Shown here: positions 15,413 to 53,744 of the stretch, one piece after another | Numbering within the stretch: position 1 is the stretch's first letter | Layout: each line of letters opens with the position of its first letter | DNA from: Gautieria morchelliformis | Taxonomy: Eukaryota; Basidiomycota; Agaricomycetes; Gomphales; Gomphaceae | Assembly (NCBI GenBank): GCA_015179125.1 | Contig: WHVA01000046.1 | Coordinates: 62,001-126,000 of the forward strand | Reading direction: 5' to 3' | DNA: 64,000 nucleotides | Notes under the pieces: model-generated | What the model was told of the DNA's origin: nothing | The model's input: only the letters and a program-made list of their open reading frames with translations | The model's database searches: none | Position numbers and translations under genes: made by a program

Positions 15413-15836
15413 GAAGGAGTCCTGGGTTTGCTGTCTGAAGAAAACCCTGAATGGACTGGTCCAGTCCCCACGGCTGTGGAATGCCCACCTGAACCGGGCG
15501 CTGGTCAAGGAGTGCGGTTTCACATGGGTCACTGTTGACCACTGTGTGTATGTGGGCACTATAACTGCTCGTATGTCTATCATGGCGGTCTATGTGGACG
15601 ACTTGTGCATTGCTGCCAGTACTGTGACAGAGATGTGCAATCTCAAATCTGAGATCGGTGCCATCTTTGACCTGGTTGACCTTAGGGATGTTCACCACCT
15701 CCTCAGTATTGCTATCACCAGGGACCATGTGAACAGATCTATCTCTCTCTCAATAATTGTACATTGAGACTATCACCTGCCGCCTGAACCTTCACCATGC
15801 CTATGCCAAGTACACGCCCCTTGACCATAATGTCCT
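15413..15836 (+). mobile_element. Ty1/copia relic, left part (reverse transcriptase)
   Basis: This is copia reverse transcriptase sequence with the MAVYVDDLCIAAST active-site region, LVDLRDVHHLLSIAI and the YIETITCRLNLHHAY stretch. It is cut at 15836 by the Ty3 insertion and resumes at 22116. The relic is broken, with several breaks besides the insertion. Confidence 0.88.
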
Positions 15837-16326
15837 TGTCAGGGGACACCCTGTTTCCCATTTCCAGTTCCGACACCACACCCAGTTCCGACTCCATTTC
15901 CGACTCCGCTTCCGGTTCCGATTCCATCTCCGCCTCCGCTTTCGGAAATGATTCCGCTTCTGGGAGAACTTCCAACAGTTCTGTTCGCCTTGCCAGTTCC
16001 GCTCCAATTTCCGACTTCCACTCTCGGAACAGTGTCAGAAATCAAGCGACTCACGTAATAGGTGGCATCAAGGGTCGATCAAGGGTCAGGGAGGTCAGGA
16101 GGATGCAGGGTTGATGGTGGGTGCCAAGTGTTGTCCCTGGCTGCACAGCGTAGTATAATACGGGCTCGCTGACATTGGGGGTCCTTAGACTTTTCTCTTT
16201 GGATTTCCCCTTGTCAGGTGAGAACCCCCTCTCTTGTATACTCTGTTCATTTATACAGACTTTGGATTTCCCCTTGTCAGTTGTGTGGTAGTGTGATCTC
16301 CAGAACCAGCTAGGGTTGCCCTTACA
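15837..16326 (+). repeat. 5' LTR of Ty3 element
   Basis: Begins TGTCAGGGGACACC and ends GGTTGCCCTTACA. The U3-like half is full of TTCCG/CGGAA words. Confidence 0.95.
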
Positions 16327-16513
16327 GCAGAAAAGTCTCTCCCCTAGAGGACCGGTGGTCGTACTGTGCGTTGCATTCGCCATAGGTGCGTTCGGAATCG
16401 GAGACAGTGACTCGGAGATCGCAACCTCTTCCGCACACACAGCGTATGACAGCCCCTGTTCTTACGTCGAGCTCCCAACCCCGGAAATCCCGTCCCATAT
16501 TTCTCCTTCCGAC

Positions 16514-17560
16514 ATGGATCCGGACGATCGTCTTCAGAATATGGAGGAGGAATTGACGCGGAACCGGATGAAGACCGACGCGATTGAAACAGCCTTACAA
16601 GCGATTTTGGCTAAGTTAGATATTCCACAAAGTGGTGGAAATGAAAAATGTTGGATGATCCGGATTTCGGAAAAGCGGAAGCAGCGGAAGAGAGGATGTC
16701 CGTGAAGTTAGCAAAGGTCAAACACGCAACTCTGGCGGACTTTGACGGAGATCGGGAGAAGGGACGCGCATTCTTCAACACATGCAGCATCTACTTTGCA
16801 ATTGTCGGAGACCTCTTTCCGAACGACCAGGCTCGGACCCACTGGGCATTGTCCTTTTTCAAGTCGGACCGCGCAACCCGTTTTGCAAACAAGGTGATCT
16901 GACATGAAGCAAAGGGCAAGGGGAACTACTTCCGGGACTGGGACGCCTTTGAGAAAACATTTTCCAACCAGTTCTGCCCAAAAAACGAGCAGCTCACAGC
17001 CCATACAAAGCTCGAGGGGACAAGCTGGTACCAGGCCAAGGATCCGGTCGATGACTACATCGATCGCTTCCAGGAGCTCATCGACCTTGCGGAGTACGAC
17101 GACGACAAGACGATCGTCATCAAATTCCGACGAGGACTTGATCCAACACTCCAGAACCAAGTCGCGCTGCTTGGGGATGGGGCTCCGGATTTCGATGACC
17201 CGGAAGGGTGGTACCAAGCTGCGCAGAGGGTGTCCCAGAACAGGGAAGCAAATGAGGCCTTCATGGAGACGAACCGGAACATGATACGCAGTTCCACTCG
17301 TCCTACTCCACCTATGCCAAAATTCGGAAGTGCATTCACTCCCACACGGAAAATATTTCCGACGGTTTCTCCGCCTGCTCCTATTAGGAACCATAGCCCT
17401 CCTGGTTCGAAGAGTGGCCCTGCCCCGATGGATGTTGACCGCATGCGTGGAAAAGGCCACGGAACTATCACCTGCTTCCGATGCCGACAACCAGGTCACT
17501 ATGCTCGCGAGTGCCCCCAAGCCTTTGACATCCGGCTTATGACCACGGAGGAGAAACTCG
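16514..17560 (+). CDS. Ty3 gag region (capsid and zinc knuckle)
   Basis: Starts with MDPDDRLQNMEEELTRN. The capsid-like part contains SYWFQDKDPV-like sequence (WYQAKDPVDDYIDRFQELI; FRRGLDPTLQNQVALL). A CCHC knuckle CFRCRQPGHYAREC lies at about 17472-17513. Gag packages element RNA. Fossil rules apply: I give it as a part only and state that the gag frame is not continuous. Confidence 0.8.
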
Positions 17561-20500: not shown

Positions 20501-20949
20501 GTGTCGACTTCATCGTTGAACTCCCAGAGTCTCATGGCTATGACGCAATCATGAACGTCGTGGATTCGGTAAGCAAGGTGTCCCACTTCATTCCGACACA
20601 CACGACTATCACAGCCCTCGGGGTGGCCCGCCTGTTCCTTGCACATGTCTGGAAGTTGCATGGGCTCCCGAAGCAAGTTGTTTCCGACCGAGGTCTGCAG
20701 TCTGTCATGGAACTGACTCGGGAGCTCTACCGCCTGCTCGGCATAAAGCTGGCTACCACCACAGCGTACCATCCGCAGGGTGACGGACAGACGGAACGGG
20801 TCAATCAGGAGTTGGAGCAATATCTCCGCCTCTTTGTCAATGAGAGGCAGGATGACTGGGATGAGTTGCTTCCACTGGCGGAATTCCAATACAACAACCA
20901 TGTACATTCCGCCACCCAACAGACTCCCTTCATGCTTGACTCTGGATGA
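17230..20949 (+). CDS. Ty3 pol region (protease, RT, RNase H, integrase core)
   Basis: One open frame of 1239 codons. It covers the gag end with the CCHC knuckle, the aspartic protease (LVDCGATGQFIDRDYV, about 17950), reverse transcriptase (RYPIPLI; YLDDIL at about 19177), RNase H (EVDSSDTATGAVLSQ; YEIHDKEMLAII), the integrase HHCC zinc finger (about 20290-20440) and the catalytic core (WDTISVDFIVELP; GDGQTERVNQELEQY). An (SD)n run encoded by TTCCGA repeats (about 18414-18450) sits between protease and RT. The products replicate and insert the element. Confidence 0.92.
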   Translation: MSQNREANEAFMETNRNMIRSSTRPTPPMPKFGSAFTPTRKIFPTVSPPAPIRNHSPPGSKSGPAPMDVDRMRGKGHGTITCFRCRQPGHYARECPQAFDIRLMTTEEKLELLPEFLALADISGVPTAEVISELKCGTWHIGSGRCIGFCDTQRVRCVPLLPVHNRFACLEVENENPPLPSLHTDPPDKVTQKPNPTPRPSRIRPWERCLPKRYVVAAAPGSKSLVIKVEIQTTDTAEVKSGPALVDCGATGQFIDRDYVERNRLTTRKLQCTIPVFNVDGSPNEAGSITEIVDTILRYDGHTECTSFAVTSLGKQDIILGFTWLQEHNPEINWQTQKVLMSRCPAKCHMCRSEVRKERQEQRKTERLIQTCHSGPHPLLAEEDSEAEFEPDPTSNSDSDSDSDSDSDVIRLSPEETLAEGECLLYVNLPPEAEHICTTGNISQRLSEASKKHDKAEVEIPEYLREFEDVFAKESFDALPPRKLWDHAIELEPGSKPTNCKVYPLSPKEQVELDEFLAENLRTGRIHPSKSPMASPVFFIKKKDSSLRLVQDYRALNAITIKNRYPIPLISELITQLRGARYFTKLDVRWGFNNVQIREGDEWKAAFRTNRGLFEPQVMFFGLTNSPATFQMMMNDIFRDMIAEGVVCVYLDDILIFTKTMSEHQEVVWRVLERLREYNLCLKPEKCEFERTRIEYLGVIVSEGKVEMDPVKVSGVADWPVPRNKKEVQSFIGFVNFYRRFIKDFSCHARALFDLTKKEVGWRWGEPEQASFDKLKELITSAPVLIFPNDSRPYRVEVDSSDTATGAVLSQQSAEDGEGWHLIAFFSKSLSLVERNYEIHDKEMLAIIRALEEWRHFLEGALCPFEIWTDHKNLEYFCTSKKLNRRQAWWSLHLSRFDFMLHHHPGRTMGKPDALSRRADHGSGSGDNADMTLLRPSLFAIRALEGVTAAGVEAEMLRDIRRQYRNGEKEELVVKAVEELRKGHSQSVRAAEWLERDGLLHFRGKVYVPGGADLRRHIVSQHHDTRVAGHAGRWKTLELVARNYWWPQMAPYIGQYVKACDLCLRTKAQRHPPVGELVPPPIPESRWDTISVDFIVELPESHGYDAIMNVVDSVSKVSHFIPTHTTITALGVARLFLAHVWKLHGLPKQVVSDRGLQSVMELTRELYRLLGIKLATTTAYHPQGDGQTERVNQELEQYLRLFVNERQDDWDELLPLAEFQYNNHVHSATQQTPFMLDSG

Positions 20950-20958
20950 CACCCACGG

Positions 20959-21620
20959 ATGGGCTTTGAACCACGCCAGGCTGAGTCCCGACTCGAGATG
21001 GTCAATGAGTTCCGAGACCGCATGGACTCCACCCTTTCGGAAGCCAAGTCGGCCCTTGCAAAGGCCAAGGATGACATGGCAAGGTACTACAACCAACGCC
21101 GGGTTCCTGCCCCGGAGTACCAAGTTGGAGACAAGGTGTATCTGGATGCAAGTGACATCCGCACCACGCGCCCTTTGCAGAAGCTTGCCCACTGCTACCT
21201 TGGGCCCTTCACAGTGATGCAGAGGGTTGGACGGAATGCATACCGCCTCCGACTTCCGATGTCCATGTCCCACCTCCACCCCGTCTTCAACGTGGTGAAG
21301 TTACTCCCTATGCTTGAGGACCCAATTCCAGGTCGGAAGGCTCGTCCGCCACCTCCGCCGGAAATTGTAGATGGGGAAGAGCACTATGTGGTGGAACGGA
21401 TCCTGGACAGCCGGTTTGTGCGAGGACGACTCCAATTCCTTGTAAAATGGGAATGGTATGGGTATGAGGAGAATTCGTGGGTCCCGGAGCAAGATGTTTC
21501 CACTCCGGACAAACTCCGTGAGTTCTATAGGACACACCCCGGTGGCCCTTGCCGAATCCGCTCGCTGGCATTTCAAACCCTCGTGTCCCATGCTTCGAGG
21601 ACGCAGCACGCTAGAGGGGG
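20959..21620 (+). CDS. Ty3 integrase C-terminus with chromodomain
   Basis: It carries the GPY/F-like region (LGPFTVMQRVGRNAYRL; HPVFNVVKLL) followed by a chromodomain (VERILDSRFVRGRLQFLVKW, then GYEENSWVPEQDV). Chromodomains direct chromovirus integration to modified chromatin. The stretch ends just before the purine tract. Confidence 0.88.
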
Positions 21621-21625
21621 GGTGA

Positions 21626-22115
21626 TGTCAGGGGACACCCTGTTTCCCATTTCCAGTTCCGACACCACACCCAGTTCCGACTCCATTTCTGACTCCGGTT
21701 CCGGTTCCGATTCCATCTCCGCCTCTGCTTTCGGAAATGATTCCGCTTCTGGGAGAACTTCCAACAGTTCTGTTCGCCTTGCCAGTTCCGCTCCAATTTC
21801 TGACTTCCACTCTCGGAACAGTGTCGGAAATCAAGCGACTCGCGTAATAGGTGGCATCAAGGGTCGATCAAGGGTCAGGGAGGTCAGGAGGATGCAGGGT
21901 TGATGGCGGGTGCCAAGTGTTGTCCCTGGCTGCGCAGCGTAGTATAATACGGGCTCGCTGACATTGGGGGTCCTTAGACTTTTCTCTTTGGATTTCCCCT
22001 TGTCAGGTGAGAACCCCCTCTCTTGTATACTCTGTGCATTTATACAGACTTTGGATTTCCCCTTGTCAGTTGTGTGGTAGTGTGATCTCCACAACCAGCT
22101 AGGGTTGCCCTTACA
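21626..22115 (+). repeat. 3' LTR of Ty3 element
   Basis: 490 bp, the same length as the 5' LTR, with about ten substitutions between them. Confidence 0.95.
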
Positions 22116-24056: not shown

Positions 24057-27000
24057 CTACTGACTATTTTCTTGGCCTGCGAGTGGTCGCGAACCCACGA
24101 TGGCGGCTTCCGTATCCCACACACGGATCGCCTTGTCAATGGACCCTGAGACAATGCGCTTGCCGTCCTGCGAGAACGCCACCGACGTGACCCAGGCAGT
24201 GTGGCCTTCCAATGGTGTTGAAATGACCTCCCCGGTGTATGCATTCCACACACGGATGGTGGTGTCATAAGACCCGGAGACGACATGCTTGCCATCATGC
24301 GAGAACGCCACCGATGTCACGCAGTCGGTGTGGCCTTCGAATGGTGCTGAAATTACCTCCCCATTGTCTGCATTCCACACACGGATCGTCTTGTCATCAG
24401 ACCCGGAGAGGATGCGCTTGCCGTCCTGCGAGAATGCCACTGAGTTGACGCGGTGGGTGTGGCCTTCAAATGGTGCTGAAATGACCTCCCCGGTGTCTGC
24501 ATTCCACACGCGGATCGTGTTGTCTTGAGACCCGGAGACGATGCGCTTACCGTCCTGCCAGAACGCCACCGACGTGACCCAGTCGGTATGGCCTTCAAAT
24601 GGTGCTGAAATAAGCTCCCCGGTGTATGCATTCCACATACGGATGGTGGTGTCATAAGACCCGGAGACGATGCGCTTGCCATCCTGCGAAAACACCACCG
24701 ACTTGACGCAGCCGGTGTGCCCTTCGAATGGTGCTGAAATGACCTCCCCGGTGTCTGCATTCCACACACGGATCGTGTTGTCATGAGACCCGGAGACAAT
24801 GCGCTTGCCATCCTGCGAGAACGCCACTGACGTGACCCAGGCGGTGTGGCCTTCGATGGGTCCTGAAATGACCTCCCCGGTGTCTGCATTCCACACACGG
24901 ATCGCGTTGTCATAAGACCCGGAGACGATGCGCTTGCCGTCCTGCGAGAATGCCACCGACGTGACCCTGTGGGTGTGGCCTTCGAATGGTGCTGAAATGA
25001 CGTCCCCGGTGTCTGCGTTCCAGACACGGATGGTGGCGTCATAAGACCCGGAGACGATGCGCTTGCTGCCCTGCGAGAATGCCACCGACGTGACCCTGTG
25101 TGTGTGGCCTTCGAATGGTGCAGAAATTATCTCCCCGGTGTCTGCATTCCACACACGGATCGTGTGGTCATAAGACCCGGAGATGATGCGCTTGCCGTCC
25201 TGCGAGAACGCCACCGATGTGACGCAGTCGGTGTGGCCTTCGAATGGTGCTGAAACTACCTCCCTGGTGTCTGCATTCCAAACACGGATCATCTTGTCAT
25301 CAGACCCGGAGATGATGTGCTTGCCATCGTGCGAGAACGCCACCGATGTGACGCAGTCGGTGTGGCCTTCGAATGGTGCTGAAATTACCTCCCCAGTGTC
25401 TGCATTCCACACCCGGATCATCTTGTCATCAGACCCGGAGACGATGTACTCGCCATCGTGCGAGAACGCCACCGATGTGACGCAGTCGGTGTGGCCTTCA
25501 AATGGTGCTGAAATTACCTCCCCGGTGTCTGCATTCCACACACGGATCGCCCTGTCAGCGGACCCTGAGACAATGCGCTTGCCGTCCTGCGAGAAGGCTA
25601 CCGACATGACGCAGTCGGTGTGGCCTTCGAATGGTGCTGAAATGACCTGCCCGGTGTCTGCATCCCACACACGGATCGTCTTGTCATAAGACCCGGAGAC
25701 GATGCGCTTGCCATCCTGCGAAAACGCGACCGACCTGACGAAGTCGGCGTGGCCCTCGAATGGTGCTGAAATAACCTCCCCGGTGTCTGCATTCCACACA
25801 CGGATCGTCTTGTCAAAAGACCCGGAGACGATGCGCTTGCCGTCGTGCGAGAACGCTACCGACATGACGGGACCGGTGTGGCCTATCAGAATGGCTTGAA
25901 TAGGGAGCCATGTCATTTCTTTCCCGGTCTCGATGCGGAGTAGTCGCGGAAATTGTGGGAGGTAAGTCTCGCATAGTTTCGACCGTTCAGGTGCAAACGG
26001 GAGTGCCGACAAATAGAGATGGGGAACACTTTGAGAGATTACACTCCCAAAGGCACCTACAAAATTCCGGGTATCCATTACGAATGCTGTAATGTCATTA
26101 TCCTGAAGTTCATTAGACTCCCGTCAGAGCTCATAACAACTTGGGCACTCACCTCACTCCAGTCCATTATTGACGAGAGCGCTGCTGTTGTATCGGGTAC
26201 CTTCTTGATTAAACTCAACACTTCTAGCCAATAGAGTAGCTTAGTCTCGAAGAACTCCTTGACCTTTGCACCTATCCCCGGCGTAAAGGTAGTGGCGCAA
26301 ACATGGTCCACCCAAAAACGGCAAGAGTAGGAAAGTTGTGGGGATATATACTTCTTGGTCCGTGTCGCCAAGTCGACCACATCATCGTTGCCCAGATGCG
26401 AAGTTTCAAGCTGACAAATGTTGAAACAAAGTTCTTCCATCATCACGCGCAAGCATGAGAGTGCAAGGCCGTCATGGTGTGAAGATGAATCGATGTAGTA
26501 TGCTTCACTCCGGTCGCGATCTGTCAAGAAGTCACGAAAAGACGTGTGCAGCAAGCTGATTGTGTCAGATTCTCGAATAGGACGGCTCAACAGAGCGCCC
26601 ATGGGCCCAACAATAGCATGAACCTCGGCACCCGACTCGACTCCATGGCACAGCTTCTCCAGGGCAGACATCGAGAGCGGTTCTCTGGCAGTCAGCAGGC
26701 AGCCCATCACCAAGCGAAAGCGACACTTGATATCGTCCGTCATGTCATCGCCATGCCCGAATATCTGCTCGAGTATACCGCGATAAAGTTGATTCATCCC
26801 ATCGAGGTTCTTGACTAAAATTTCCTCCAGTTGCTTAGCGGGGACGTGACCACGCTTCCCACCGCCTTTAACAAATAGGCAAGCAGTGGACGCCCATTGA
26901 AAGTGACCTTCAGATTTCTCAACCAATAATCGACACCAGCCCTCGTTAGGCCATTTGCGCTCGAGGTCCGTAATGTTACCTAATTGGTCCTTCACAAAGC

Positions 27001-29162
27001 GGGTGACGGCATCGGCAGGGTTCGGGTCAATATCCTTTAAGGACCTGGAAAGGACATGCTTCTGCCCAAGAAGGGCGTCCAGGATGTCTTCTTCGGCACG
27101 GGAGGTGACGAGAACACGGAAGTTGGGCGGCAATTCTGCAGCTTCGCTGCCAAGGACAGACAAGAGACCCTGGCGAGATTTCAGGTCTCCGCTCTCATCC
27201 AATGCATCAATAACGATCACCGTTGGTCCGACGGTCGTTAGCCCATGGGCCGTGTCTAAAATGAACCTTTGGAACTGCTGATGAGCTATGCGTGTGGTCC
27301 GAAGGGCTCTCTGCTCTGCCACCACTTTCACCAACGATGCTTTGCGTTGTGGGTCCAGATCAGCCAGATCACGAGCAATAGTGCTAAAGATATTGTCGGG
27401 GGATCGCTCGGCCGGATGGTCGCGGTTAAAACAGTACGAGGATCCGAGACGTTTGAGCCTGGCAAATCGTCGAGCGACCTCGTGAGCAATTGCAGATTTA
27501 CCGGCACCTGCAACATCGTTCAAAAAAAATATCCGGGGGGTGTCGTCGCTATCCTGGTTGGCCCAATCGCAGATCTCCTCAATAACTTTCTCGCGTGTAC
27601 CCGGCAAACAGCCTTTTTTAGGATCGCATCCAGCTCCATGTGCATAGGGCATGTCATTAAGCTGAACTTCCACGGCTGGTTATAACGCGTATTAGACTGG
27701 GGAAAACCATCAAACCAGAAAATCACAGATGTCAATGATGATATCCAGAACACGTAGTACAGTGATTTCAGTATGAATCACGGCATGTTGTTGTAACTCC
27801 GCCTTGAGTCTGACGAAAGATTTCTCGTATTGTTTGACTATGCTGTCGACATCCGACACTACATTTTTCGCGGTTCCTTTCCCTAAACAAAGATCGTCAA
27901 CTATGGCCACCTGACGGTGGATTCAACATACAAGATCCCTTGTTTTTTGTGTAGGCACGGATAAAGTAGCTGCACTCTAACGTCTGCTGCTCCAAGGCTA
28001 AGATAATTGGCTTCTGCGATTCGATTTTCCTCAACGGCTCTGCCAGATGGATGAATGCATAGGTGTCTCCCATAATTTTCGCCAGACCATGAATCCTATC
28101 GTTCCGGTCCATCTGAGCAATGATTGTCTAATAGAGTCAACCCCAGATGTCAGCTGTGTCTATCCGGTTAATGTATGTCATAGATGTACCGTGTGAGCAA
28201 GAGACAGGATGGACCATGCCATTTTCGTATAAGGATGGACCTAGAATTAAATCACGCCATGTCAATGAGATGACCTGGTCGACCCCCGGTGTTTGAACTA
28301 TACCTCGGAGGCCTTATCCACGATCTTGGTAAACAGCTTGATATTGTTCAGGAGGGGATCCCAAGCCGCCACTATTGGGTCGATAGTATTGGTGGTCGAA
28401 GTGACCCGGTTGACTATATTCCGTACAAAAGGGATTAGAGACGGCGGCGAGTGCATATTATCGACCACTCTCGTTCCGCTGACGGCTTCGTTCAACTGGG
28501 CCTCCCGCGCCTCGTCGGACGTCGCGAAAGACGTCAGGGTGAACTCTAGGACAGTCCGAACCTCGCGCATATTCCCTGCATCATCGTATTTACGCAGTGT
28601 GCGAGCAACGGCTGCTGTGTTCGATGATTACAGGTGCATTCCGTCGATGAGCGAAGAGGACTGACCTGCATTTGCTCCTTCTGCAAGAAGCGACTCAATG
28701 CTTTCCCTCGCGCCACCTATGTAGTAATCACGTGTAAAGATACGGTGCACGTAGACATCGATTCCTAATACGGAACCACCACCCAAGTCGTTGCTGGGCA
28801 TGGATGTAAGATCTAGTGAAGATAACACTGGAATTAAACGGACAAATAGAACGACTCATTCCACGACGCAGTACTGCCGCTCGCAGGTAACGCAGTCTTC
28901 TTCACATCCTTATCGACAAAGAGTTTTACGTAGTAGTCACCAGGACATATGCAGAGCAGTTCGACAGTGGGAAGGTGCTCGCATTTCAGGCCTGTTGTCG
29001 ATCAGCAAAAGTCAGCATGCAAATAGGCAGCGCAAACGAAAGAGTCTTTCCAGCAACTTTGATTCCTGCAGGAATACTTCTGGGTGGAGAGTGAACAGTT
29101 GGCTCACTAGAGAAGCGATCGTGGACTTACGCTGCTGCCCAGGGGCCCTCAACGTTGTTCAT
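24057..29162 (-). CDS. NLR/STAND protein: C2-like domain, helical N-terminal region, NACHT NTPase, 14 WD40 repeats
   Basis: This is a multi-exon gene (about nine exons); the proposed start is the ATG at 29162 (uncertain). N-terminal exons (about 28990-28640) spell a C2 domain: [24 protein letters not shown], then [20 protein letters not shown]. Next come basidiomycete NLR N-terminal signatures ([37 protein letters not shown]). The NACHT domain starts [17 protein letters not shown], with Walker [17 protein letters not shown], Walker [11 protein letters not shown] and a sensor-like [11 protein letters not shown] 50-bp intron (26103-26152) leads to the WD40 exon (24057-26102) with fourteen 43-residue repeats, enough for two seven-blade propellers. 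Such proteins act in non-self recognition and programmed cell death; this protein's ligand is unknown. The frames are open, so it appears intact. Confidence 0.88.
24100..25920 (-). repeat. WD40-coding tandem array (129-bp unit, 14 copies)
   Basis: Fourteen units of about 129 bp encode [36 protein letters not shown]-type blades. DNA identity between units is very high, and differences cluster at a few codons: the two residues after GHT and those around GS-D. This indicates recent unit shuffling or gene conversion. Confidence 0.92.
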
Positions 29163-41329: not shown

Positions 41330-42632
41330 TGTCATGACGCGTTTATTTCCCATACTCAGATGCTCTGTTCTCCTATTTCTCACTCCACCTTCGTGTTCGT
41401 TCCGATCGCCCTTGCCGTGTTCAGCAACCGATCCTTGCTGTTCGCACCATTTACCATGGCCACGCCGTCAAAGCACGATCGACGTCCCTGAACTAACTTA
41501 GCAGTCATTGCTGGGCCTATCACCTCCTTTGCTCAAACCTCTTTCAATGGTGTTCCTATGATCGGATTGTCATGACTTGTGTATTTCCTGGACCTTGTTA
41601 TCCCATTTCCCCTTTTGCCACTCCTCCCCCTTTGTTCGCTCGGCTTTTCCCTCCACTTCAACCACTTCTCCCCTATGTCATTCCCGTTCGCCCTTCCTTG
41701 CATTTCTCCGAACCGCTATTCGCTGCTCGCACATTTTGCCAGCAGGCACGCCATCAAATACGATCAATACCATTTACCAGGCACGATGGTTCATCACTAA
41801 CCCCATCATCTTCTTAATCCAACCCCTTTGGGTGTTCATATGGCCAAAGTGTGTTCACAAGACGTCCCTTCTGTAGGTCGTGCAGGGTAGCATGTATGCG
41901 GGTCCCAAGACATGGTTTTGTACATGAATTCCTTCGCCACCTTTACTCTTTCCATAAGCGCCAAGCGCTTCAAGCACTCTAATTGATTAACTCACTCACT
42001 CACCTTTACTCTCCGTCGTTTCATGTTCGCACTCTTCCCTCACTCTATTGTATGTTTATTCCATCTACTTAGTATCATGACTGCGCACCCCTATCCAACC
42101 CTGACTCGCGACGGCCTCTTTCCTATTCGCTGATGCCTTACGAGCATTCAATATAAGTAGTTTACATTCACATGTATATTCTCCAGTTCAATTATCATAC
42201 ATCGTCCATCTTGTGCAAACTTGACCTCGCTGTGATCATCATCTTGAGCCTTCTCTTGGAGATTTCTATCTTCGACTAGCCGAGGACCTAGGCATCACTG
42301 GTGAGTTCTCACACTTCATCTTCATTACCTTAGCCTTCGAACTATTTTCTGCGCTGTTGGCGAAGGGCTCCGAAGGAGCACCTTCGCCGGCGAAGGGATT
42401 GTCGCTACTTAGACAGCCCTTCCGTGACACCTTGCACGTTGCATCGTCAAATGCCACGGGCCATTTCGCTACGACTGTAGATAGGGCAAGCCCCGTTCGG
42501 GCAACCCTCCTATCTTGTGAACATTCATTGGTTCACATATTCGCCGAACGGCATACTTATTCGCACAAGTCATTCGGGAATTCGCTGTGTTCACTAATAC
42601 ACGATATTAACACCTAAAAACCAATCTTGACA
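41330..42632 (+). repeat. Solo LTR, 1.30 kb (TGTCATGA...TTGACA family) with internally duplicated 5' end
   Basis: It begins TGTCATGACGCG and ends CCAATCTTGACA, flanked by a perfect CTGTG duplication (41325-41329 and 42633-42637). A second LTR-like start, TGTCATGACTTG at 41568, repeats the first ~240 bp, so the copy is longer than its sister at 43273. Confidence 0.85.
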
Positions 42633-42696
42633 CTGTGCAGCTGCATGAAAGGTCTGTTGCCTTGACCTTCAGTCAAGGCATCCCGGACCAGATTGA

Positions 42697-43146
42697 TGTT
42701 GGGTGCATTTATGCTCCTGCACCAAAATCAAGCCCAATAAATTCCACCATTTCTATTTCTTTCAATTTTGACCTGAAATTATGCTGACATTCATTCTATG
42801 ATTTGTCAAATTTTTCTTTAATTTTTTGAAGCTGTATTATCACTTCTTTTCATGTTCTGTCCAACCGACCCTTTGTGGGTGGTTATGGACATGTTTCCTT
42901 TTTGAGCTGCAGCGGTTCATTGACGTGCTACGTTCCACAGGCGCTAAAGAGCCGGGCAGTAGTATATGCACGGTGAGACACATTTCCCCCTCTCTCAGTG
43001 ACAACCAAATTCACTGAGAGAGGCAAGTACAGTAGTCTTATTCTTCTTTGATTTGTTGACCCAAAAATCTTGTAGTGAATTGATTTCTAGTCTATTCTTT
43101 TGAGCACCAGGTCCAGTCCTACTGCCTATAATTCCTGTCCTCTACA
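42697..43146 (-). repeat. Solo LTR, 450 bp (TGTAGAGGAC...CCAACA family)
   Basis: The ends are TGTTGGGTG and CTCTACA, flanked by a perfect ATTGA duplication (42692-42696 and 43147-43151). It is an inverted copy of 46392-46827 (shared phrases GTGCATTTATGCTCCTGCAC and CTCTCTCAGTGA). Confidence 0.9.
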
Positions 43147-43272: not shown

Positions 43273-44288
43273 TGTTATGACTTGTTTTATTTCTTGTACC
43301 CAGCTATCCCTATTTTCCCTTTCACCACTCCTCCTCCATGTTCGCTCAGCTTCGCCCTTCCCTTCGACCACGCCTCCTCTATGTTCGCCGCATTCACCAA
43401 ACAACCATTCACTACTTGCATCATTTGCCAGGAGGCACGCCATCAAATATGATTGACATTCTTTACCCGGCTTGATGGTTCATCACTAGTCCCATCACCT
43501 TCTCGACTCAACCCCCTTTGGGTGTTCCTATGGCCGGAATGCATTTGCGGGATGTCCTACCCCTGGATCATGTGGGATCAACCCAGCAGACCAAGAGTCC
43601 GTGCAGGGTAACATGTATGCAGGTCTCAAGGTGTGTTTTCGTACATAGATACCTTCACCCTCTTTCCTCCCTGTCATTTCATGTTCGCACTCCTCCTGAT
43701 TTCTATTGCATGTGTGTTTCACCTATTTGTATCCTGACGGCGCACCCCTATCCAACTCTGACTCAAGACGGCCTCTTTCCTATTCGCTGATATCATATGA
43801 GCATTCAATATAAGTAGTCTACATTCGCATGTATATTCCTCAGTTCAATTATCATATGTCTATCTTGTGCAAAACTTGACCTCACTGTGACCATCATCTT
43901 GAGCCCTCTCCTGTAGATTCCTATCCTCGACCAGAGGAGGACTTAAGCACCACTGGTGAGTTTTTGTACTTCACCTTCATTACCTTAGCCTTCATACTAT
44001 TATCGGTACTGTCAGCGAAGGGCTCCAAAGGAGTGCCTTCGCCGGCGAAAGGATTGTTGCTGCTTCAACAACCTTTCCATGACACCTTGCACGTTACATC
44101 ATCAAGTGTTACGGGCTACTTCACTACGACTGTAGATAGGGCGAGCTCCGTTCGGGCAGCCCTCTTACCTTCTGAACATTTATTGGTTCATCCTATTCGC
44201 TGAACGGCACACTTATTCGCACAAGCTATTTGGGCATTCGCTGTATTCACTAATACATGATATTAACACCTAAAAACCAATCTTGACA
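43273..44288 (+). repeat. Solo LTR, 1.02 kb (TGTCATGA...TTGACA family)
   Basis: Starts TGTTATGACTTG and ends TCTTGACA, flanked by a perfect ACCCC duplication (43268-43272 and 44289-44293). Gag-type sequence lies on both sides. Confidence 0.92.
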
Positions 44289-45768
44289 ACCCCAAGCCAT
44301 ATGCCAGAGGTTTGGACCTCGAGGAGTTCGAGGGATTCATAGCTGGCATCTTGAGATGGCTCAAGATGAACTGCCTATTAGGGCCAACCACAGTGCGGAT
44401 GCAGGTGGATTACCTGGGCACTCACCTAACCGGCAAGGCCCAAGAATGGTTTGTCTGAAACATTGAGTGTTTCAATCGTCAGGTCCGTGAATGGACCTTG
44501 GAGATGGCTATGCAAGGGTTACAGAAGAGATTCATGCACACCCTAACATATCACCATATGTAGAATAAGTTCGACATGGTCGTGCAAGGCACGAAAACTG
44601 TTCAGGAAATGCTGAACAAGCTCATGAAATACTTGGTGTGGATGGTACAGCCACCCAATGAATACACACTCTGAAGATGGTTTGTGTCAGCATTGCGTGA
44701 TACATTGCGCAATGAAGTCCTAAAAAAGGGCTACAACGCTGAGTCCAGCTCAATTGAGCAGCTCTTTGAAGCTGCCTGTATGATAGAGGACGCATCCCGG
44801 TAGAATCATGGGATGCACCAGGCAGAAACCGCGGCCACAATGGCCATCACATCATGGATCGGGACAAGCAAGCTGACCACACAGTCGGGCTTTAACAAGC
44901 CCACTGCATTCCAGGCAAACAACGCCTTCCGACAACCTATGGCAACAAAGTCACTGCAATCATGTCATCCGCCTCAGGCATTGGGGAGCTTGGCTTTGCC
45001 GAGCTACCCGCAAAAGCCATCTGGCTGCCCCCCAGACCGGCCACAGAACACACACAGCAGCGCAAGCTGCTTTGAATGTGGCCAGACAGGTCACATCAAG
45101 GTGAACTGCCCATGCCTGAAGCCAAAAGTATGGACAGCGGCCATATGGCAAGATGATGATGGGGATCCGGAGGATCCCATCGGCACCTCTCTTCAAGAGA
45201 TTGAAGAGGGGGAGGGTGATCCTCAAGAAACTGAGGATCAGGACAGGAATGGTGAGCCAACAGAGGCCTGGGAGTGGAGCCATCCCAATACTATGATGGG
45301 GATGAGGTCATGGCAGCCACTCAAACTGCCTACCGATCCAGCGCGATGAGAATCATGCTGGTAGATGAGACAACCAAAGTCATGGCTGCTCGAACAATGG
45401 CCCCAGACAAGGCAGCCGAGAATACGGTGAAGGATGTGATGCCCTTCCCAGATCAAGATGTCATCAGGGGCGATGTCACTTGCTGTAAATACAGGAGGAA
45501 AATCGATATGTCTGAGGCATATAGGCAGATCCATATCTGTCCTGAAGACGTCCCAAAGACAGCCTTTGCAACAATCCCTGGCATGTTCAGGAGCCAAGTG
45601 ATACAGAGCGAACGCCCATAGTAACTCAGCTATTTGCGCATATTTGGACTACAAATACTAACCCACAAAATGCGGTGAGTGGAACTTATGAGGCGCATGT
45701 CACGGGGTGCCATCTCCGCTTGAATTCTTTTATGGGGACTTAGAATTTGCAGGCGTGTCCTGTGAAAG

Positions 45769-46305
45769 TGTAAGAACCCGGCCTTTGGCCGGTTACTTAC
45801 GGGTAGAACCTTCTTCCGAGCCCGAGCCTTGTGATATTCATGCCAAGCACATATGATCCTTATCCTGCGCCTGAGCCCGAGCCCGAGCTTGAGTTCATAT
45901 CCAACCTTGATCCCATGCCCGTATCCCCTTAGTTACTGATTCCGCTCCATCACGCATCATTCGTATATTACCTCGCCCTGACCTCCACTAATATGTTCAT
46001 CCCTGACTCGTACCCTCGCTCGTATATAACCCCCCTTGTATGCACTCCTACTTCTCAGTCTGAAAATCAACTATTGTATCCCTTCGATCCTTAGCTAGTT
46101 TCTAAGCCTCGCCTCTTAAGCCAAACCTCGCCTCTTATTCGTTTGCCTCCGAAGTTGGGACTCGTGCGTAGGGTCGGCGCAGCACATAAGCTGAAGCCAA
46201 GTCCCTCTCCGAGTTCCCCATCCAAACCTCGCCCAGTAACCTCGGACCTTGCCTCGGGTTTCGTCCCCGACCTCGGTCAACCTTGCGACAGATCGTATTG
46301 TAACA
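45769..46305 (+). repeat. 5' LTR of Ty3 element
   Basis: 537 bp; begins with the CCGGCC-TTT-GGCCGG hairpin. Rich in CCTCG/CCTCGCC words. Confidence 0.94.
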
Positions 46306-46391
46306 GTATTTTCAGACTGCTTACACCCTACATATCCCTTTTCTCCACTATGTCCATGATAACTCGCTCTCGCACCCTTCGGGGTATATCA

Positions 46392-46827
46392 TGTAGAGGA
46401 CAGGAATTATAGGCAGTAGGTATGGACTTGTTGTTCAAAAGAATAGACTAGAAATTAATTCACTACAGAGAATTTCTAGGTCAATAAATCGAAAGAACAC
46501 TAGACTAATTTACTCGCCTCTCTCAGTGAATTTAGTTGTCACTGAGAGAGGGGGAAATCTGTCTCACTGTGCATGTACTACTACCCGGCCCTTTAGCGCC
46601 CAAGAGCTCGCGCGTCAAGTCATTTCAGACTCCGCTGCGTGCAGCCACTTGTGAAAATAGAAATAACAAGATGAAATGGAGAGGTAGGGAGTGACAGGAA
46701 AATTTCGAAAATAATCAGAGAAATGGGTGCGTGGTACAAAAACAATGTGAGAAGAGATTGAAACACCATACAGCAAATCGAATATATTATGCTTGATTTT
46801 GGTGCAGGAGCATAAATGCACCCAACA
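46392..46827 (+). repeat. Solo LTR, 436 bp, nested in the Ty3 leader
   Basis: Starts TGTAGAGGACAGG and ends GCACCCAACA, flanked by a perfect TATCA duplication (46387-46391 and 46828-46832). Same family as 42697-43146. Confidence 0.92.
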
Positions 46828-47079
46828 TATCAGAACAACGACGTTTCTCGGAAGCCCCCGATGATTCACCACCGTCCCCGGGGATACCCCTCACAGACCC
46901 CGCCGAGCCTAGTAACAAAGGCAAAGGTAGGGCTAACCCCGGTGATCCTTCAGGTGATCCACGAGATGGCTCTGGAGGCTCCAACAACGATCGGGACCTC
47001 CCCAACCTCCCACCCGAGGACCTCGGTGACCTCGAGGACAACGAGCTTATGCGTTGAGTGTTCATCAAACTCACGAATC

Positions 47080-47990
47080 CACGCAAGTCCGAAGCATGAG
47101 CCAAGGTCAAGGAACTGGATAGTTATGACGGTACTGACCAGGCCAAGCTTCGCACCTTCTTCCTTCAATGCGTGCTCAACTTCCAAGATCACCCCACAGC
47201 GTTCAAGATTGGGGCCTCGAAGGTGCAGTATGCTATTTCTTACCTGTCCAGCTCAGCTTTACAGTATTTCGAGCCGGCGATCCTCGGCAAAGTCCAACCC
47301 GAGCCAGATTGGCTCGAGCACTGGGACAGCTTCAAGGCCGAGCTCGAGCTCAACTTCGGCTCATATGACAACGCTGCCCAAGCCGAGATTGACCTCGAGA
47401 AGATCGTTATGAAAGAGCACCACAAGACCGCGCGATTCTTTGCCCGAGCTTCGACTCGGACTCAGTGGAACGATGCGGCCCTCCGACACTTCGCCTACAA
47501 GGGCTTGGCCAAAAGAATCAAGGACGACTTACTTCACTTCCCTCGATTCCGCAGCCTCGCCGAGCTTAGGAACTTCGCACTGGAATGCGACAGCCATTAC
47601 TGGGAGCGTAAGGAATATGACTCCATGATCAATGGTCGTAGCTCCCAGCCTGCACGCACCGCTAATCAGTCCAGCAGCAATGCCACTAACAACAACCAGT
47701 CCTCCAGCGGTTCCAATAACAATAAGAACCGCAACAAGGCTAACAACAGCGGCAAGGGTTCCAACAACAACTCTTCAAACAACAAGAGCCAGCCCGACAT
47801 TCAAGCAAGCTCGGGAAGGATGGCAAACTACTTCCCGAGGAGCGCCAACGTCGGGTCGACCAAGGCCTTTGTCTGCTTTGCGGCACCAAGGGCCACATCG
47901 TCAAGGACTGCCTGAAGAACAAGTCTACCAACAGTAGCGGTTCTAACGGTCGGGCAGCGAAGACCCCTAACGAGGGAACTTCGGCCTCCA
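47080..47990 (+). CDS. Ty3 gag region
   Basis: Capsid-like sequence (SYDGTDQAKLRTFFLQCVLNF; FGSYDNAAQAEIDLE; FARASTRTQWNDAALRHF), an Asn/Ser-rich spacer (about 47650-47790), then a CCHC knuckle (CLLCGTKGHIVKDC, about 47875-47915). Described as a part of the fossil element only. Confidence 0.82.
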
Positions 47991-48121
47991 TTACGGAGAA
48001 TAGGTAGCAACCTCGGAACCACACGATCCGAGGATTGCGGTAACCTCACCCGTGTGCTCAGACTCAGTGCCGCTTCTCATTCATTGTCCAAGATTCCCTT
48101 AATGTAGATCTAACCTCGCCT

Positions 48122-51100
48122 TTGCTTCCCAACGTCACTTTTGTGGCATTAGTTGACTGCGGGTCCTCAGATTGTTTTATTGAATCCAGATTTGTCCAGA
48201 AGTACTCTATGCCTGTTTATCCTGTCTCTCCTATACCCTTGAAACTATTTGACGGTAGTACTAACACTACCATTACCCAAGCTCTAGACCTCTGCATTTA
48301 CTTTCCGACTGGCGAACAACAATGGGTAACCTTCTACATAACCTCGCTCGACTCAAGTTGCTCGGTGGTACTTGGCCACAACTGGCTCACCCGCTACAAT
48401 CCGTCGATTGACTGGGTAATGGGCAGTATTACTTTCAAGACCATCGACCTAACAACGACTCCAGCGACCCCGGCGACGTCAGCCCGCTCAGCTTCGGCTA
48501 CGACTTCGACCTCGCCTACGGCATCTTCGCCCCCGCCTCCGACCTCGCCTCCAAACTCGCCTCCGAAGTTGCAAGCACCGCTCGTTTCCCTAATAAATGC
48601 ACCCGCTTTCATGCACGCATCTAGATTGGAAGGGTCCGAAGTGTTTCAGCTCAATCTGGCTTCGCCTGAGCTCCTTGCCAGAGGGGCAACATCGGGAGAA
48701 AGTTCTTCCGAGCTTTCTGAGAACGTTAAGAAACATGTTCCCGAAGTATATCACGAATTTGCAGATGTGTTCAGCAAAGCACGCGCTGACACTCTAGCTC
48801 CCCACCGACCCCACGATATCAAAATCAACCTTGAAGAAGGGACCTCGCCGCCTATCATTCCCATCTACTCTCTCTCGGCTTCCGAACTCAAAGCACTTCG
48901 CGAGTTCATCGACGGGCACTTGAACATCGGTTTCATCCGACCTTCACCCTCACCTCATGGTGCACCGGTATTGTTTGTTCACAAAAAAGATGGCTCACTT
49001 CGGTTGTGTGTCGACTTCCGAGGCTTAAACAAAATCTCGAAAAAAGATCGGTATCCATTGCCATTGATTGCTGACTTACTTGATGCTCCAAAGAATGCTC
49101 GCATCTATACGAAGATTGACCTTCATCACGCTTACCACCTCGTACGGGTGGCCGAGGGTGACGAATGGAAAACCGCCTTCAGGACTCGCTATGGGCCTTT
49201 TGAATGGTTGGTTATGCCATTTGGTCTCACTAACGGCCCTGCTGCTTTCCAGAGATTCATGAACAAGATTTTCGCCGACCTTTTGGACGTTTGTGTGGTG
49301 GTATACTTGGATGACATTCTAATCTACTCCAGTGACCCCTCCAAACATGTTGAACATGTCAAGGAAGTCTTGCGATGACTGTGACTCAACAACCTCTTCG
49401 CCAAAGAAGACAAATGCAAGTTTCATTGCAACTCAGTTGAATTCCTCGGCTACATACTCTCTCCCGAGGGCCTCACTATGGCGGATGATAAGGTAAAGGT
49501 CATTCAAGACTGGCCTGAACCTCACAAAGTTCGCGACATCCAGTCCTTCTTTGGTTTCACCAACTTCTACCGACGTTTCATTCACAACTACTCCGACATC
49601 ACCATTCCTCTCACCCGACTCACCCACAAGGGTACCCCTTGGAACCTTTCCGAGGATTGTCGGCAGGCCTTCAACTTGTTGAAGAAGGCGTTCACTGCCG
49701 CTCCTATCCTTACCCACTGGATTCCTGACCTTCCACTAATCGTAGAGACTGATGCTTCAGATTATGCCTTAGCGGCAATCTTATCACTGCAAACCTCGGA
49801 AGGCGAATTCATCCAGTCGCTTTCCACTCCCACACATTCACCTCTACCGAGCTCAACTACGATGTTCATGACAAGGAGCTCCTAGCAATTTTTGAAGCGT
49901 TTCAACGCTGGCGACACTACCTCGAGGGCTCTGGCGACCCTGTCGACATTATCACCGACCACAAGAACCTTGAATACTTTTCAACAACGAAGCTCTTGAC
50001 CCATCGACAAGCTCGGTGGTCAGAATACCTTTCCCAATTCAACCTCGCCATCCGTTTGCGACCTGGTCGCCTCGGAACGAAGCCTGACTCTCTCACTAGA
50101 CGATGGGATGTCTACCTTAAAGAGGGGAATAGCGACTATGCCACCATAAACCCACAGAACCTACGGCCAGTGTTTACTCAACACCAGCTGGCATCGTCCC
50201 TTAGAGCTACTAACCTCGCTCCCGTCATACTCCAAGCCGCTTCGATGCTTGATACCGAGCTGATCCGAGCTGACATACTAGCGAACCTTCCCTCGGACCC
50301 CATAGCCAAGTCGCACCTCGGCTTGGTTAATGACCCGAGGTGGACCACAGACCCCAGGGTTTTCTCAAGCTTGACAACCGAACCTATGTTCCAGCGGCCC
50401 AAGACCTTCGACTTCGCATCCTGCAATACAAGCACGACCACATTCTCTCGGGACACTTCGGGGTCAACAAGGCCTTGGAGCTGATCCGACGAGACTATAC
50501 TTGGCCAGGGATTAGATCCTTTGTCAAGGAGTATTGCAAGACATGTACCACTTGTATGCGAAGCAAGCCGCAACGTCACAAGCCCTATGGTCTCCTCAAA
50601 CAACTTCCCGTTCCCGAGAAGCCTTGGAATTCCATCTCTATGGATTTCATTGAGCAGCTTCCCCCTTCATCCGAGTTCACCTCCATACTAGTGATTGTTG
50701 ACCGCTTCACTAAGCAGGTTATCTTCATTCCAACCACCGACAAGATAACCTCGCAAGAGCTCGCTCACCTCTTCGTCCTTCATGTCTTTTCCAAGCATGG
50801 AGTCCCCTCGCACGTCACCTCGGACAGGGGTTCCGAGTTCGTCTCGCACTTCTGGCGTTCTCTAGGGAAAGCCTTGGACATGCGGTTGCATTTCACCTCG
50901 GGATATCATCCCGAGGGTGACGGTCAAACCGAGCGTGCTAACCAGACCTTGGAATAGTACCTCAGGATATATTGCAACTATCAACAGTCCAATTGGGCTT
51001 CACTCCTTCCCCTCGCCGAGTTCGCTTACAACAATGCGCCTAGCGTAACCACTGGCATGTCCCCATTCTTTGCTAATAAGGGTTATCACCCGAACCTCGC

Positions 51101-51722
51101 AGTCCACCCCGAGCACAACCTCGCCTCGGCACAAGCTCGAGACTTCGTGGTTGACCTGGACGAGCTACGCCAAGAACTTCGCCACGCCATCCTCGAAGCT
51201 CAGAAGACCTACCAAGCCTCGGCCGATGTTCGCTGCAAACCCGCTCCTGATTTCCAAATAGGATCCCTCGCCTTTGTAAAGGCACAGTACTTCCAAACAA
51301 CTCGGCCTACCAAGAAGCTCACCGAGAAGTTTTTGCGTCCTTTTGAGATCATTTCCCGAGCGGGTACTCACTCCTTCACCCTTCGACTTCCAGAACACAT
51401 GCATTCAGTCCATCCAGTATTCCAGGTATCCATGCTCGAACCAGCCTCACCCAACACCATCCCGAACCAAGTTCAGCCTCCTCCACCCCCAGTCATTATC
51501 GACGGCGAACCCGAGTTCGAGGTTTCCGAAATCCTCAACTCGAAGATCGATAATAGACGCAAGAGCTGTAAGTTACTCTATCTTGTTAGGTGGACTGGTT
51601 ACGAAGGTACCGACGAAGAAACCTCGTGGATCCTCGCTTCTGAGCTTGATCATGCCTCGGAGCTGGTCACTGACTTCCACGAGTCTTACCCGGCCAAGCC
51701 AGGACCTTTGACTGCCCTATGA
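48122..51722 (+). CDS. Ty3 pol region (protease to chromodomain)
   Basis: Protease ([15 protein letters not shown], about 48150), reverse transcriptase ([23 protein letters not shown] at about 49300), RNase H ([27 protein letters not shown]), and an integrase HHCC finger ([19 protein letters not shown], then [13 protein letters not shown]). The core ([23 protein letters not shown]) and a C-terminal chromodomain ([23 protein letters not shown]) ending near 51720 complete the set. The region is not one open frame; a few breaks are present. Confidence 0.88.
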
Positions 51723-51839
51723 CCGTTTCCTAGTTTAACCCCCATGACCCCAGTAGTTAGATAACAAAAAAAAATCCTCGCAATCGAATCACAAAATCAA
51801 TAAAAGACCAAGAAAAGATTCCATTATTCCATTAGTAGA

Positions 51840-53005
51840 TTACTCTAACATCCTCACATCCTCTTCCGCGCTCTCCTCCCTATCTTTGCCCGACTCCTCC
51901 CCATTACTACTACTACTTCGCTCCACTAGACCCCCATATCCCCCATACTCCACCAAATCTCTCGCGTCCTGCAGACGTCTCAAGTAGTTCCTCTGCCTCC
52001 TTATCCTCATGAACTCTATGTCCGCCCTGTTCATCCTGTCATTCGCCGCTCTAAACTCCCCCAACAACTCGCACACCCTCTCCCCAACCTCGCCCACCTT
52101 CTTTCCCACATCCCTCACCGCCGCTATCAACTCCCTCATCTCCGCACTTCGCTCCAACCTTTTCGTCTTCTTATCCTTCTTCGCCCTCCGACCTTCCACC
52201 TCGGTTTCTTCCACCTCGGCTTCCTCTACCTCGGCTTCCTTCCCCTCACTCTGCCCCGCTTCCCCAACCTCCCTCCCCTCGCTCTGCCTCGCTCCCCCAG
52301 TCTTCTTTCCCTTCTCCTCGCTCAACCTCGGTTCCATCCTCTCCACCCTCGTCTCCAAGTTCCGCTCGACCCAGTCGCTTGAGTCGTCCTCCTCCTCAAC
52401 CTCGTCCCGAGCCTTGGCCTCCTTCCTTGGCCTCGGCCCTCCTCGCTATCCTCGCTCCTCGCCCGCTTCTTGCCCACTGCGCTCACCTGACTTTTCCCAG
52501 GGGTCGCCTTGCTGCGACGACCTAAGGCTATACTACAGCCTAAAGACCGCGTCCTGCACCATATGCAGGCCCCCTGGTCGGCGACGCCGAAGTCGAGGCT
52601 CACCTGGCGAAGGCACGTGTAATCACACTGTTCGCAGCATGCGCACCTCGCCTCGGGCTTCACCCCAAGCTGCCATGCTCGAGGACCCCCGTCAGCGAGC
52701 TTGTACCCGTATAGGGTCTAGTCTGTCGGGTGGTAAGCGAAGAGCATTCGCTTGTACTACTCAAGTCAGCGAACAGCAAAATATGAGGCTACCAAACGAC
52801 TCACCTTTTTGCCATTTGGCCCTTCCTGCCACGGCTGCCGCATGTCGATGGCCCCCGCCTCATCAAATGCCCCAACTTCGGGTCGATCCTCGGGCATAAC
52901 CTCGCCCGAGGCTCCGTTCTCCTCAGACAGTAGTGTCTGGTCGAACACATTGTTCGTGCTGTTCTCGTCAACGGCTGAGTTGAAGAGGGCTTGAGGGCGC
53001 ACCAT
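51840..53005 (-). CDS. Antisense accessory gene of Ty3 element: Cys module plus coiled coil
   Basis: Minus-strand gene between pol and the 3' LTR, starting at ATG 53005. It consists of three open segments (53005-52805, 52699-52487, 52445-51840), separated by GT-AG intervals of 105 and 41 bp that keep the frame; the total is about 339 residues. The first segment is acidic (MPEDRPEVGAFDEAGAID). The second carries a Cys module: CACCEQCDYTC, then CIWCRTRSLGC, then a basic stretch. The third is Glu/Lys-rich with a long coiled coil (MRELIAAVRDVGKKVGEVGE; RRQRNYLRRLQDARDLVEYG). The same elements, in a different order, occur in the antisense gene at 1-765. It appears intact. Function unknown; a nucleic-acid-binding or regulatory role is an inference. 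Confidence 0.7.
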
Positions 53006-53177
53006 ATTTCGTTGGCACTTGGTTCACTGCCTCCTACCCACCCTTTTATCTAACCTCGGCTACGATTTAAGTTTCGCCTTTCCGGCTACTTAACATCGGG
53101 CCGGGATCTAGATTCGAGGATAGGCGAACCTTGTTCATATTATGGCCTCGAGGGTCTCGGCCATAAGGAGGGGATAC

Positions 53178-53739
53178 TGTAAGAACCCGGCCTTTGGCCG
53201 GTTACTTACTGGTAGAACCTTCTTCCAAGCCCGAGCCTTGTGATATTCGTGCCGAGCACATATGATCCTTATCCTGCGCCTGAGCCCAAGCCCGAGCTTG
53301 AGTTCATATCCGACCTTGATCCCATGCCCGTATCCCCTTAGTTACTGATTCCGCTCCATCACGCATCATTCGTATATTACCTCGCCCTGACCTCGGCCTC
53401 CTGACCTCGCCCTGACCTCCACTCATATGTTCGTCCCTGACTCGTACCCTCGCTCCTATATAACCCCCCTTGTATGCATTCCTACTCCTCAGTCTGAAAA
53501 TCAACTATCATATCCCTTTGATCCTTAGCTAGTTTCTAAGCCTCGCCTCTTAAGCCAAACATCGCCTTTTATTCGTTTGCCTCCGAAGTTGGGACTCATG
53601 CATAGGGTCGGCGCAGCACATAAGCTGAAGCCAAGTCCCTCTCCGACTTCCCCATCCAAACCTCACCCGGTAACCTCGGACCTTGCCTCGGGTTTCGTCC
53701 CCGACCTCGGTCAACCTTACGACGGATCGTATCGTAACA
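53178..53739 (+). repeat. 3' LTR of Ty3 element
   Basis: 562 bp; matches the 5' LTR apart from about 25 substitutions and an extra ~25-bp CCTCGGCCTCCTGA-type segment. Confidence 0.94.
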
Positions 53740-53744
53740 GAAAG

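Follow-up and report, generated by a model that had tools for sequence, protein, structure and literature searches.

In the basidiomycete Gautieria morchelliformis, a 64,000-nucleotide stretch of contig WHVA01000046.1 (assembly GCA_015179125.1, positions 62,001 to 126,000 of the forward strand), referred to here as the window, carries a Ty3/gypsy chromovirus with an additional protein-coding gene on its minus strand. This gene sits between the pol stop codon (51720-51722) and the 3' long terminal repeat (LTR; 53178-53739), tail to tail with pol. It has two exons and one short intron and is about as constrained as pol. It belongs, as a resident accessory, to a chromovirus family of high copy number, in which it lies next to most of the closest copies of pol. 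Antisense accessory genes are already known as a kind; the spliced, zinc-cluster-like form is new. An original prediction, made from the window alone, had put in this interval an antisense gene whose product has paired cysteines and a long coiled coil. Both the sequence and its relatives bear this out, the coiled coil being probable.

Structure of the antisense gene

Copies of the gene were sought in the source genome of the window (122 Mb in 1113 contigs); all copy counts would be inflated if this assembly represented both nuclei of a dikaryon. For alignment, 43 copies were fetched, 40 of them with flanks (the window's own included) and three as the gene alone. Intact relatives have an exon 1 of about 69 codons, a single intron and an exon 2 of 284-314 codons, giving a predicted product of about 360 amino acids. 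The start ATG and the AG at the intron end are present in 43 of 43 copies, the donor GT in 42 (L035 has AT) and a branch-like CTGAY or TGATTTG also in 42, while intron length varies from 46 to 50 nt. In three copies (L049-L051) the intron interior is quite different, yet the donor, branch and acceptor are unchanged. An interior that is free to change while the splice signals stay is the behaviour of an intron, and points to the antisense strand as the transcribed one. A retrotransposon that is copied through RNA is expected to lose its introns; this one would be kept because it lies antisense to the genomic RNA, which cannot splice it out.

The three-segment gene model first proposed fails against these relatives. 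Its gap at 52446-52486, taken as an intron, falls where the frame of the relatives runs on uninterrupted, and is a frameshift of the window copy. The second gap, at 52700-52804, has a real donor, but splice-site alignment of the copies replaces this 105-nt intron by one of only 48 nt (52757-52804), the remainder merely skirting a stop codon at 52718-52720. Both gaps had thus been drawn around the stop and the frameshift of the window copy. For the same reason the gene cannot be called open although pol is broken, as had been claimed: the window copy carries this stop and a frameshift near 52440, and is broken as pol is.

Other observations weigh against so simple a model. Only 10 of the 43 copies are strictly intact. 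In six copies of one group exon 1 stays open across the intron, giving a frame of 160 codons from the ATG in L035, L039, L040, L042 and L043 and one of 366 codons in L041; for these, splicing is not the sole route to a product. Unspliced reading from the ATG halts at 22-85 codons in the remaining 37 copies.

Upstream of the ATG, a TATA-like box (GATAAAAG) lies 38-45 bp ahead of the start codon in the window copy and is found in all 43 copies; the leader that carries it is no more variable than pol. On these grounds the gene could plausibly have a promoter in the interval from its ATG to the LTR, and the earlier claim of a promoter of its own is only suggested.

Selection on the antisense frame

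The ratio of nonsynonymous to synonymous substitution rates (dN/dS, or omega), which the original prediction had named as a check, indicates purifying selection, with omega at 0.216 over 903 pairs from the 43 copies. It depends on distance, being 0.53-0.56 below a dS of 0.1 and 0.182 at a dS of at least 0.5. High values are thus confined to near-identical copies, which points to constraint while the elements multiply and decay after insertion. Among intact copies, five pairs drawn from different groups gave an omega of 0.16-0.22, with bootstrap limits of 0.115-0.318. When the same 33 copies were used for both, omega was 0.204 for the antisense gene and 0.178 for the C-terminal segment of pol; the two are about equally constrained. 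Together with the many copies and the conserved splice sites, an omega of about 0.2 strongly supports the view that this is a maintained accessory gene.

A chance frame, or the shadow of a constrained frame on the sense strand, is ruled out by frame-by-frame comparison of stops and omega. Exon 2 has 1.35 stops per 1000 codons in the antisense frame and 10.8-59.4 in the five other frames (8 to 44 times more), with an omega of 0.22 vs 0.42-1.34. Similarly, exon 1 has 1.02 stops per 1000 codons vs 6.9-52.9 elsewhere, and an omega of 0.18 vs 0.37-2.2. That the open frame might be an artefact of lying opposite constrained sense coding, or of low-complexity sequence, is in our view hardly credible. 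Sense frame +1 does have a lowered omega (0.42 in exon 2 and 0.37 in exon 1), and an opposite frame of 303 codons is open in the window. However, this sense frame carries 16.6 and 9.0 stops per 1000 codons in the two exons, vs 1.35 and 1.02 on the antisense side, and a lowered omega is expected from overlap with a constrained opposite frame. Moreover, kept splice sites around the different intron interior of L049-L051 would be unexpected from a sense frame.

The same data bear on a proposal in which the antisense transcript matters rather than its protein, pairing with genomic RNA to tune silencing or copy number while the frame is incidental. Antisense RNA regulation of retrotransposons has been discussed for the antisense open reading frames of plant elements, in passages of a review (PMC7264820). 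Here the constraint is codon-shaped and by far strongest in one frame, all 43 copies keep the ATG and six cysteines of the product are conserved. These features argue against the transcript as the sole agent and make that proposal decidedly improbable.

Copies and position in the family

Matches to the gene at the DNA level number 42 in 40 copies (40 candidates scored), whereas at the protein level each of three queries matched at least 150 stretches (150 scored). Among the 150 tblastn matches listed, 122 have no stop within the match, and 85 of these also have an open frame of at least 280 amino acids.

The 40 flanked copies are the best DNA matches to the gene and leader of the window, so that carrying the gene was a condition of their choice and not a finding. 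All 40 have an LTR in the opposite orientation to the gene, beginning no more than 10 nt from its leader. Sequence of pol is kept on the LTR strand in 36 of them; it is not in L027, L028, L044 and L046, and L034 retains just an upstream piece.

A search that avoids this circularity used the last 762 bases of pol, and its 40 best copies were chosen regardless of the gene. By comparison of the lists by eye, a listed gene match lies on the opposite strand, no farther than about 2 kb beyond pol, in 34 of the 40; for one of the 34 (C539:9348) the match is to exon 1 only. Homologues in the same position, proposed originally as a further check, are thus found in most of the closest pol copies. Five have no gene match among those listed (C420:112871, C281, C139, C902 and C158:24427) and may hold diverged or cut copies; another (C982) lies at a contig end. 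A location opposite to gag-pol, in the interval between pol and the 3' LTR, in most copies (among the best 40 by pol) and with conservation close to that of pol places the gene in the aORF-3R class of antisense genes.

A second chromovirus of the window, at 15837-22008, has terminal repeats 98% identical and a long gag-pol frame of 1348 + 317 codons. Its chromodomain-bearing pol frame ends inside the 3' LTR repeat, and no such antisense gene was seen in it (about 15.8-22.0 kb). Thus, the gene is not in every chromovirus here.

Divergence of the gene against its backbone

Over the final 4.3 kb of the element, copies differ from one another most in the antisense gene (mean pairwise difference 0.07-0.13) and less in pol (0.03-0.07), the LTR (0.06) and the leader (0.04). 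Median dS is 0.39 for the gene vs 0.14 for pol in the same copies. The excess persists in transversions, so that CpG decay does not explain it: among 25 copies, transversion divergence is 0.039 in exon 2 with the spacer and 0.036 in exon 1 with the intron, vs 0.010 in pol and 0.013 in the leader with the LTR, which makes the gene three to four times as divergent as the pol or LTR of the same copies. At third positions the values are 0.047-0.051 in the gene vs 0.014-0.017. The copies were picked by similarity of the gene region itself, a bias that runs against such an excess.

Distances in the different parts are also unequally correlated. Rank correlations are 0.23-0.28 between exon 2 and pol or LTR, 0.52-0.69 between pol and LTR, and 0.58-0.64 between exon 1 and both. 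When the 25 copies were divided into four segments (pol; exon 2 and spacer; exon 1 and intron; leader and LTR), each segment rejected the trees of the others in the Kishino-Hasegawa and Shimodaira-Hasegawa tests. In the approximately unbiased test the one tree to escape rejection was that of the LTR when set against exon-2 data (p 0.107), with a program warning of too few replicates. The likeliest account of these patterns is that recombination has placed old lineages of the gene on backbones that are younger. The data do not demonstrate that the gene shuffles freely: exon-2 groups track the pol clades (5 changes, where the minimum is 4), and exon 1 correlates with pol and LTR.

Features of the predicted protein

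Exon 1 appears acidic by eye. Exon 2 opens with a conserved stretch and six cysteines; downstream of these come a basic stretch, an acidic repeat that varies in length and then a long helix. In exon 2 of one relative (L012) the cysteines are spaced C38-x2-C41-x6-C48-x15-C64-x2-C67-x6-C74. The consensus of the Zn2Cys6 cluster is CX2CX6CX5-16CX2CX6-8C, and typical members have a run of basic residues separating cysteines two and three. The module therefore resembles the Gal4-type regulators of PF00172 in that its cysteine spacing fits the consensus and a long helix follows further on; unlike them, the antisense protein lacks the basic run at that place and scores below the family cutoff.

With the isolated cysteine module as query, Zn_clus was the top Pfam model in four of four sequences, which are close relatives and not independent. 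As a control, ten shuffled peptides were scanned, five of which preserved the cysteine places; none of the ten hit Zn_clus, and five hit other models. The whole exon gave nothing with Zn_clus at an E-value up to 1. A genome-wide PF00172 search listed 17 places, none of them, compared by eye, at a listed place of the gene. In the AlphaFold2 model of L012 a helix spans residues 177-267, with a predicted local distance difference test score (pLDDT) of 75-84 at residues 201-260 and 53-65 at residues 181-200. A search of PDB sequences found nothing significant.

Several of these results count against assigning the protein to a known family or fold. The Zn_clus scores are 11.0-15.8 bits, vs a gathering cutoff of 21, and two of the ten shuffles reach 16.1 bits on other cysteine-rich models. 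Fold confidence is poor outside the helices (mean pLDDT 49), the whole protein matches no significant Pfam or NCBIfam family, and no relative outside the source genome was found in IMG/VR, GTDB genomes or plasmids, none of which is a fungal collection. Because Zn_clus stays below its cutoff and shuffles reach 16.1 bits, the module is termed Zn2Cys6-like rather than Zn2Cys6, a resemblance that is not filed as membership of PF00172.

The lack of a similar protein in Pfam, NCBIfam and these other, non-fungal collections would also fit a host gene lately captured by one subfamily. Against this stand a dS of 0.43-0.54 between intact copies of different groups, deeper than in pol, and the listed gene match alongside 34 of the 40 best pol copies. 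We regard such a capture as very improbable.

Proposed role and the ACCTCG motif

A cysteine cluster, a basic stretch and a probable coil lead us to guess at a dimeric nuclear protein that binds nucleic acid. The role that we favour, with about even confidence, is that of a nuclear regulator of the element, acting in the manner of HBZ of human T-cell leukaemia virus type 1 (HTLV-1). In such a scheme, transcription would start at a promoter immediately internal to the 3' LTR and proceed toward pol, as the anatomy of the element suggests, and the transcript would be spliced and translated into the protein of about 360 amino acids. Judged from its sequence, the protein may enter the nucleus and dimerise through its coil, while the Zn2Cys6-like cluster and the basic stretch may contact nucleic acid. 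Its likeliest job would be to control how much RNA or DNA of the element there is, or what becomes of it, through the LTR promoter or through binding to the genome, as HBZ does for HTLV-1. The suggestion of the original prediction, that the gene controls expression or targeting of the element, is likewise a reasonable guess.

HBZ is a spliced antisense product that acts on sense transcription, according to the parts of PMC3185765 that describe it. HBZ/APH is like the gene described here in being antisense, spliced and located toward the 3' end of its element, and in having a nuclear product (a predicted one here), which in HBZ has a dimerising coil (PMC3185765). In the same description HBZ differs in being a basic leucine zipper protein rather than a cysteine-cluster one, and in having its exon 1 and ATG inside the LTR (PMC3185765); the comparison is an analogy, and no homology is claimed.

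The element is also rich in a short motif. ACCTCG (core CCTCG) occurs 40 times on the sense strand of the window element and twice on the opposite strand, where the mean of 200 shuffles was 3.4 and their maximum 9. In the matched parts of 40 copies (L009-L048) the counts are 959 and 88. The motif is found in the LTRs, in gag, in pol (mainly in two reading phases) and in the antisense gene. Elsewhere in the window the two strands carry 2 and 3 in the second chromovirus, and 11 and 2 in the stretch 1-15800. Conservation of CCTCG sites among 34 copies was higher in four of five comparisons (97.1% and 99.0% vs 94.3%; 85.4% vs 76.4%; 83.6% vs 80.9%) and level in the closest-matched one (83.6% vs 83.8%); neither sites nor copies are independent.

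This motif enters into a different proposal, in which the protein does not regulate transcription but serves as a structural or packaging factor, binding genomic RNA or cDNA, perhaps via CCTCG, and aiding assembly, nuclear import or the choice of integration site. The strand bias of ACCTCG (40 to 2; 959 to 88) resembles an RNA-level feature, and a basic stretch with a long helix would suit such a protein. The added conservation at motif sites is modest and mixed, and a packaging role, though possible, seems unlikely to us. A more elaborate version of the regulator is quite unlikely: that the protein serves in recognition specific to the element, as the fungal equivalent of HBZ on a zinc-cluster fold, its old and diverse alleles deciding mutual recognition or exclusion of elements, with the strand-specific CCTCG motif as target.

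Host element and its surroundings

The chromovirus spans 45769-53739, with paired LTRs and a GAAAG target site duplication on both sides. Reverse transcriptase (RT), RNase H and integrase, followed by a chromodomain, lie between these LTRs, which places it among the Ty3/gypsy chromoviruses. Five separate pieces of pol were scanned against Pfam, with matches to RVT_1, RT_RNaseH, rve, SH3_Tf2-1 and Chromo. In gag, Pfam gave no match for 47100-47912, a scan that excluded the knuckle stretch. The two LTRs are 95-96% identical without gaps, or 91.5% over 563 aligned columns with indels counted. The pol of the window copy is damaged by stops and frame breaks, and about 1.45 kb, occupied by the antisense gene, separates it from the 3' LTR. 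Pieces of the 5' leader of the element (46392-46828) recur in inverted orientation at 42696-43146, about 3.2-4 kb upstream and outside the element, and are 85-94% complementary.

Table 1. Coordinates of the chromovirus and its antisense gene in the window
Feature	Position	Strand	Basis
Target site duplication GAAAG, left	45764..45768	.	Sequence
5' LTR (TGTAAGAACC...GTAACA)	45769..46305	+	Direct repeat with 3' LTR
gag region, split into frames in window copy; zinc-knuckle-like CxxCxxxGHxxxxC	46797..48007	+	Frames; knuckle read by eye
pol: protease, RT, RNase H, integrase, SH3_Tf2-1, chromodomain; broken in window copy	48044..51722	+	Pfam, frames
Exon 2 of antisense gene, including stop codon; premature stop 52718-52720 and frameshift near 52440 in window copy	51840..52756	-	Comparison with relatives
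Long helix near the C terminus, a probable coiled coil; limits approximate	51930..52210	-	AlphaFold2 model of L012
Six-cysteine module C-x2-C-x6-C-x15-C-x2-C-x6-C	52535..52645	-	Each Cys in at least 40 of the 41-43 covering copies
Intron, 48 nt, GT...CTGAC...AG	52757..52804	-	Alignment of copies
Exon 1 of antisense gene, 67 codons here vs 69 in most intact relatives; ATG 53003-53005	52805..53005	-	Alignment of copies
Putative TATA-like box GATAAAAG upstream of antisense ATG	53043..53050	-	Present in 43/43 copies
Polypurine tract abutting 3' LTR	53165..53177	+	Read by eye
3' LTR	53178..53739	+	Repeat comparison, flanked copies
Target site duplication GAAAG, right	53740..53744	.	Sequence

Farther upstream, direct repeats at 42004-42632 and 43662-44288 are 76-92% alike and about 1656 bases apart, and are perhaps the LTRs of another short element. 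On the minus strand at 24060-27679, a NACHT-type gene (NPHP3_N and AAA_16 in 26081-27679) lies beside a frame of 688 codons, which is built of 129-nt direct repeats that are 73-83% alike.

Relation to known systems and significance

The original prediction took fungal Ty3 elements to carry gag-pol only, which does not hold: Boty-like retrotransposons of Botrytis cinerea carry the antisense gene brtn, as the passages on these elements in three papers report (PMC7264820, PMC8365987, PMC4227169). Like the gene described here, brtn is an additional gene on the antisense strand of a chromodomain-bearing fungal gag-pol element, and an entry in a review lists it between pol and the 3' LTR (PMC7264820). 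Its host is an ascomycete, and the passages of the citing papers that deal with it mention neither an intron nor a cysteine module; the two genes are compared by description, not by sequence.

Plant genes of the aORF-3R class include gene23 of maize Grande, that of rice RIRE2 and ORF4 of Silene Retand, according to the relevant passages of PMC7264820 and PMC11963269. The antisense gene of Grande is described there as having its own promoter and a nuclear protein (PMC7264820, PMC11963269). Retand, as described in such passages, differs in belonging to a non-chromovirus lineage, whose antisense proteins mostly have TRP28 (PF04195); the antisense protein of the window gave no Pfam match to this domain at an E-value up to 1. 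In the open-access literature, within which the original description of brtn does not fall, we found, among the titles and abstract openings listed, no report of such an antisense gene in a basidiomycete, nor of one that has an intron or such a cysteine module.

The functions of antisense accessory genes in plant and ascomycete elements are called unknown in the passage of the review that treats them (PMC7264820). In the Gautieria family, a single genome supplies at least 150 matched stretches, together with an intron that is clear, a zinc-cluster-like module open to testing and, as a yardstick, the pol of the same copies. With it, the role of antisense genes for retrotransposons becomes directly testable, and the family may provide a fungal parallel to the antisense regulators of HTLV.
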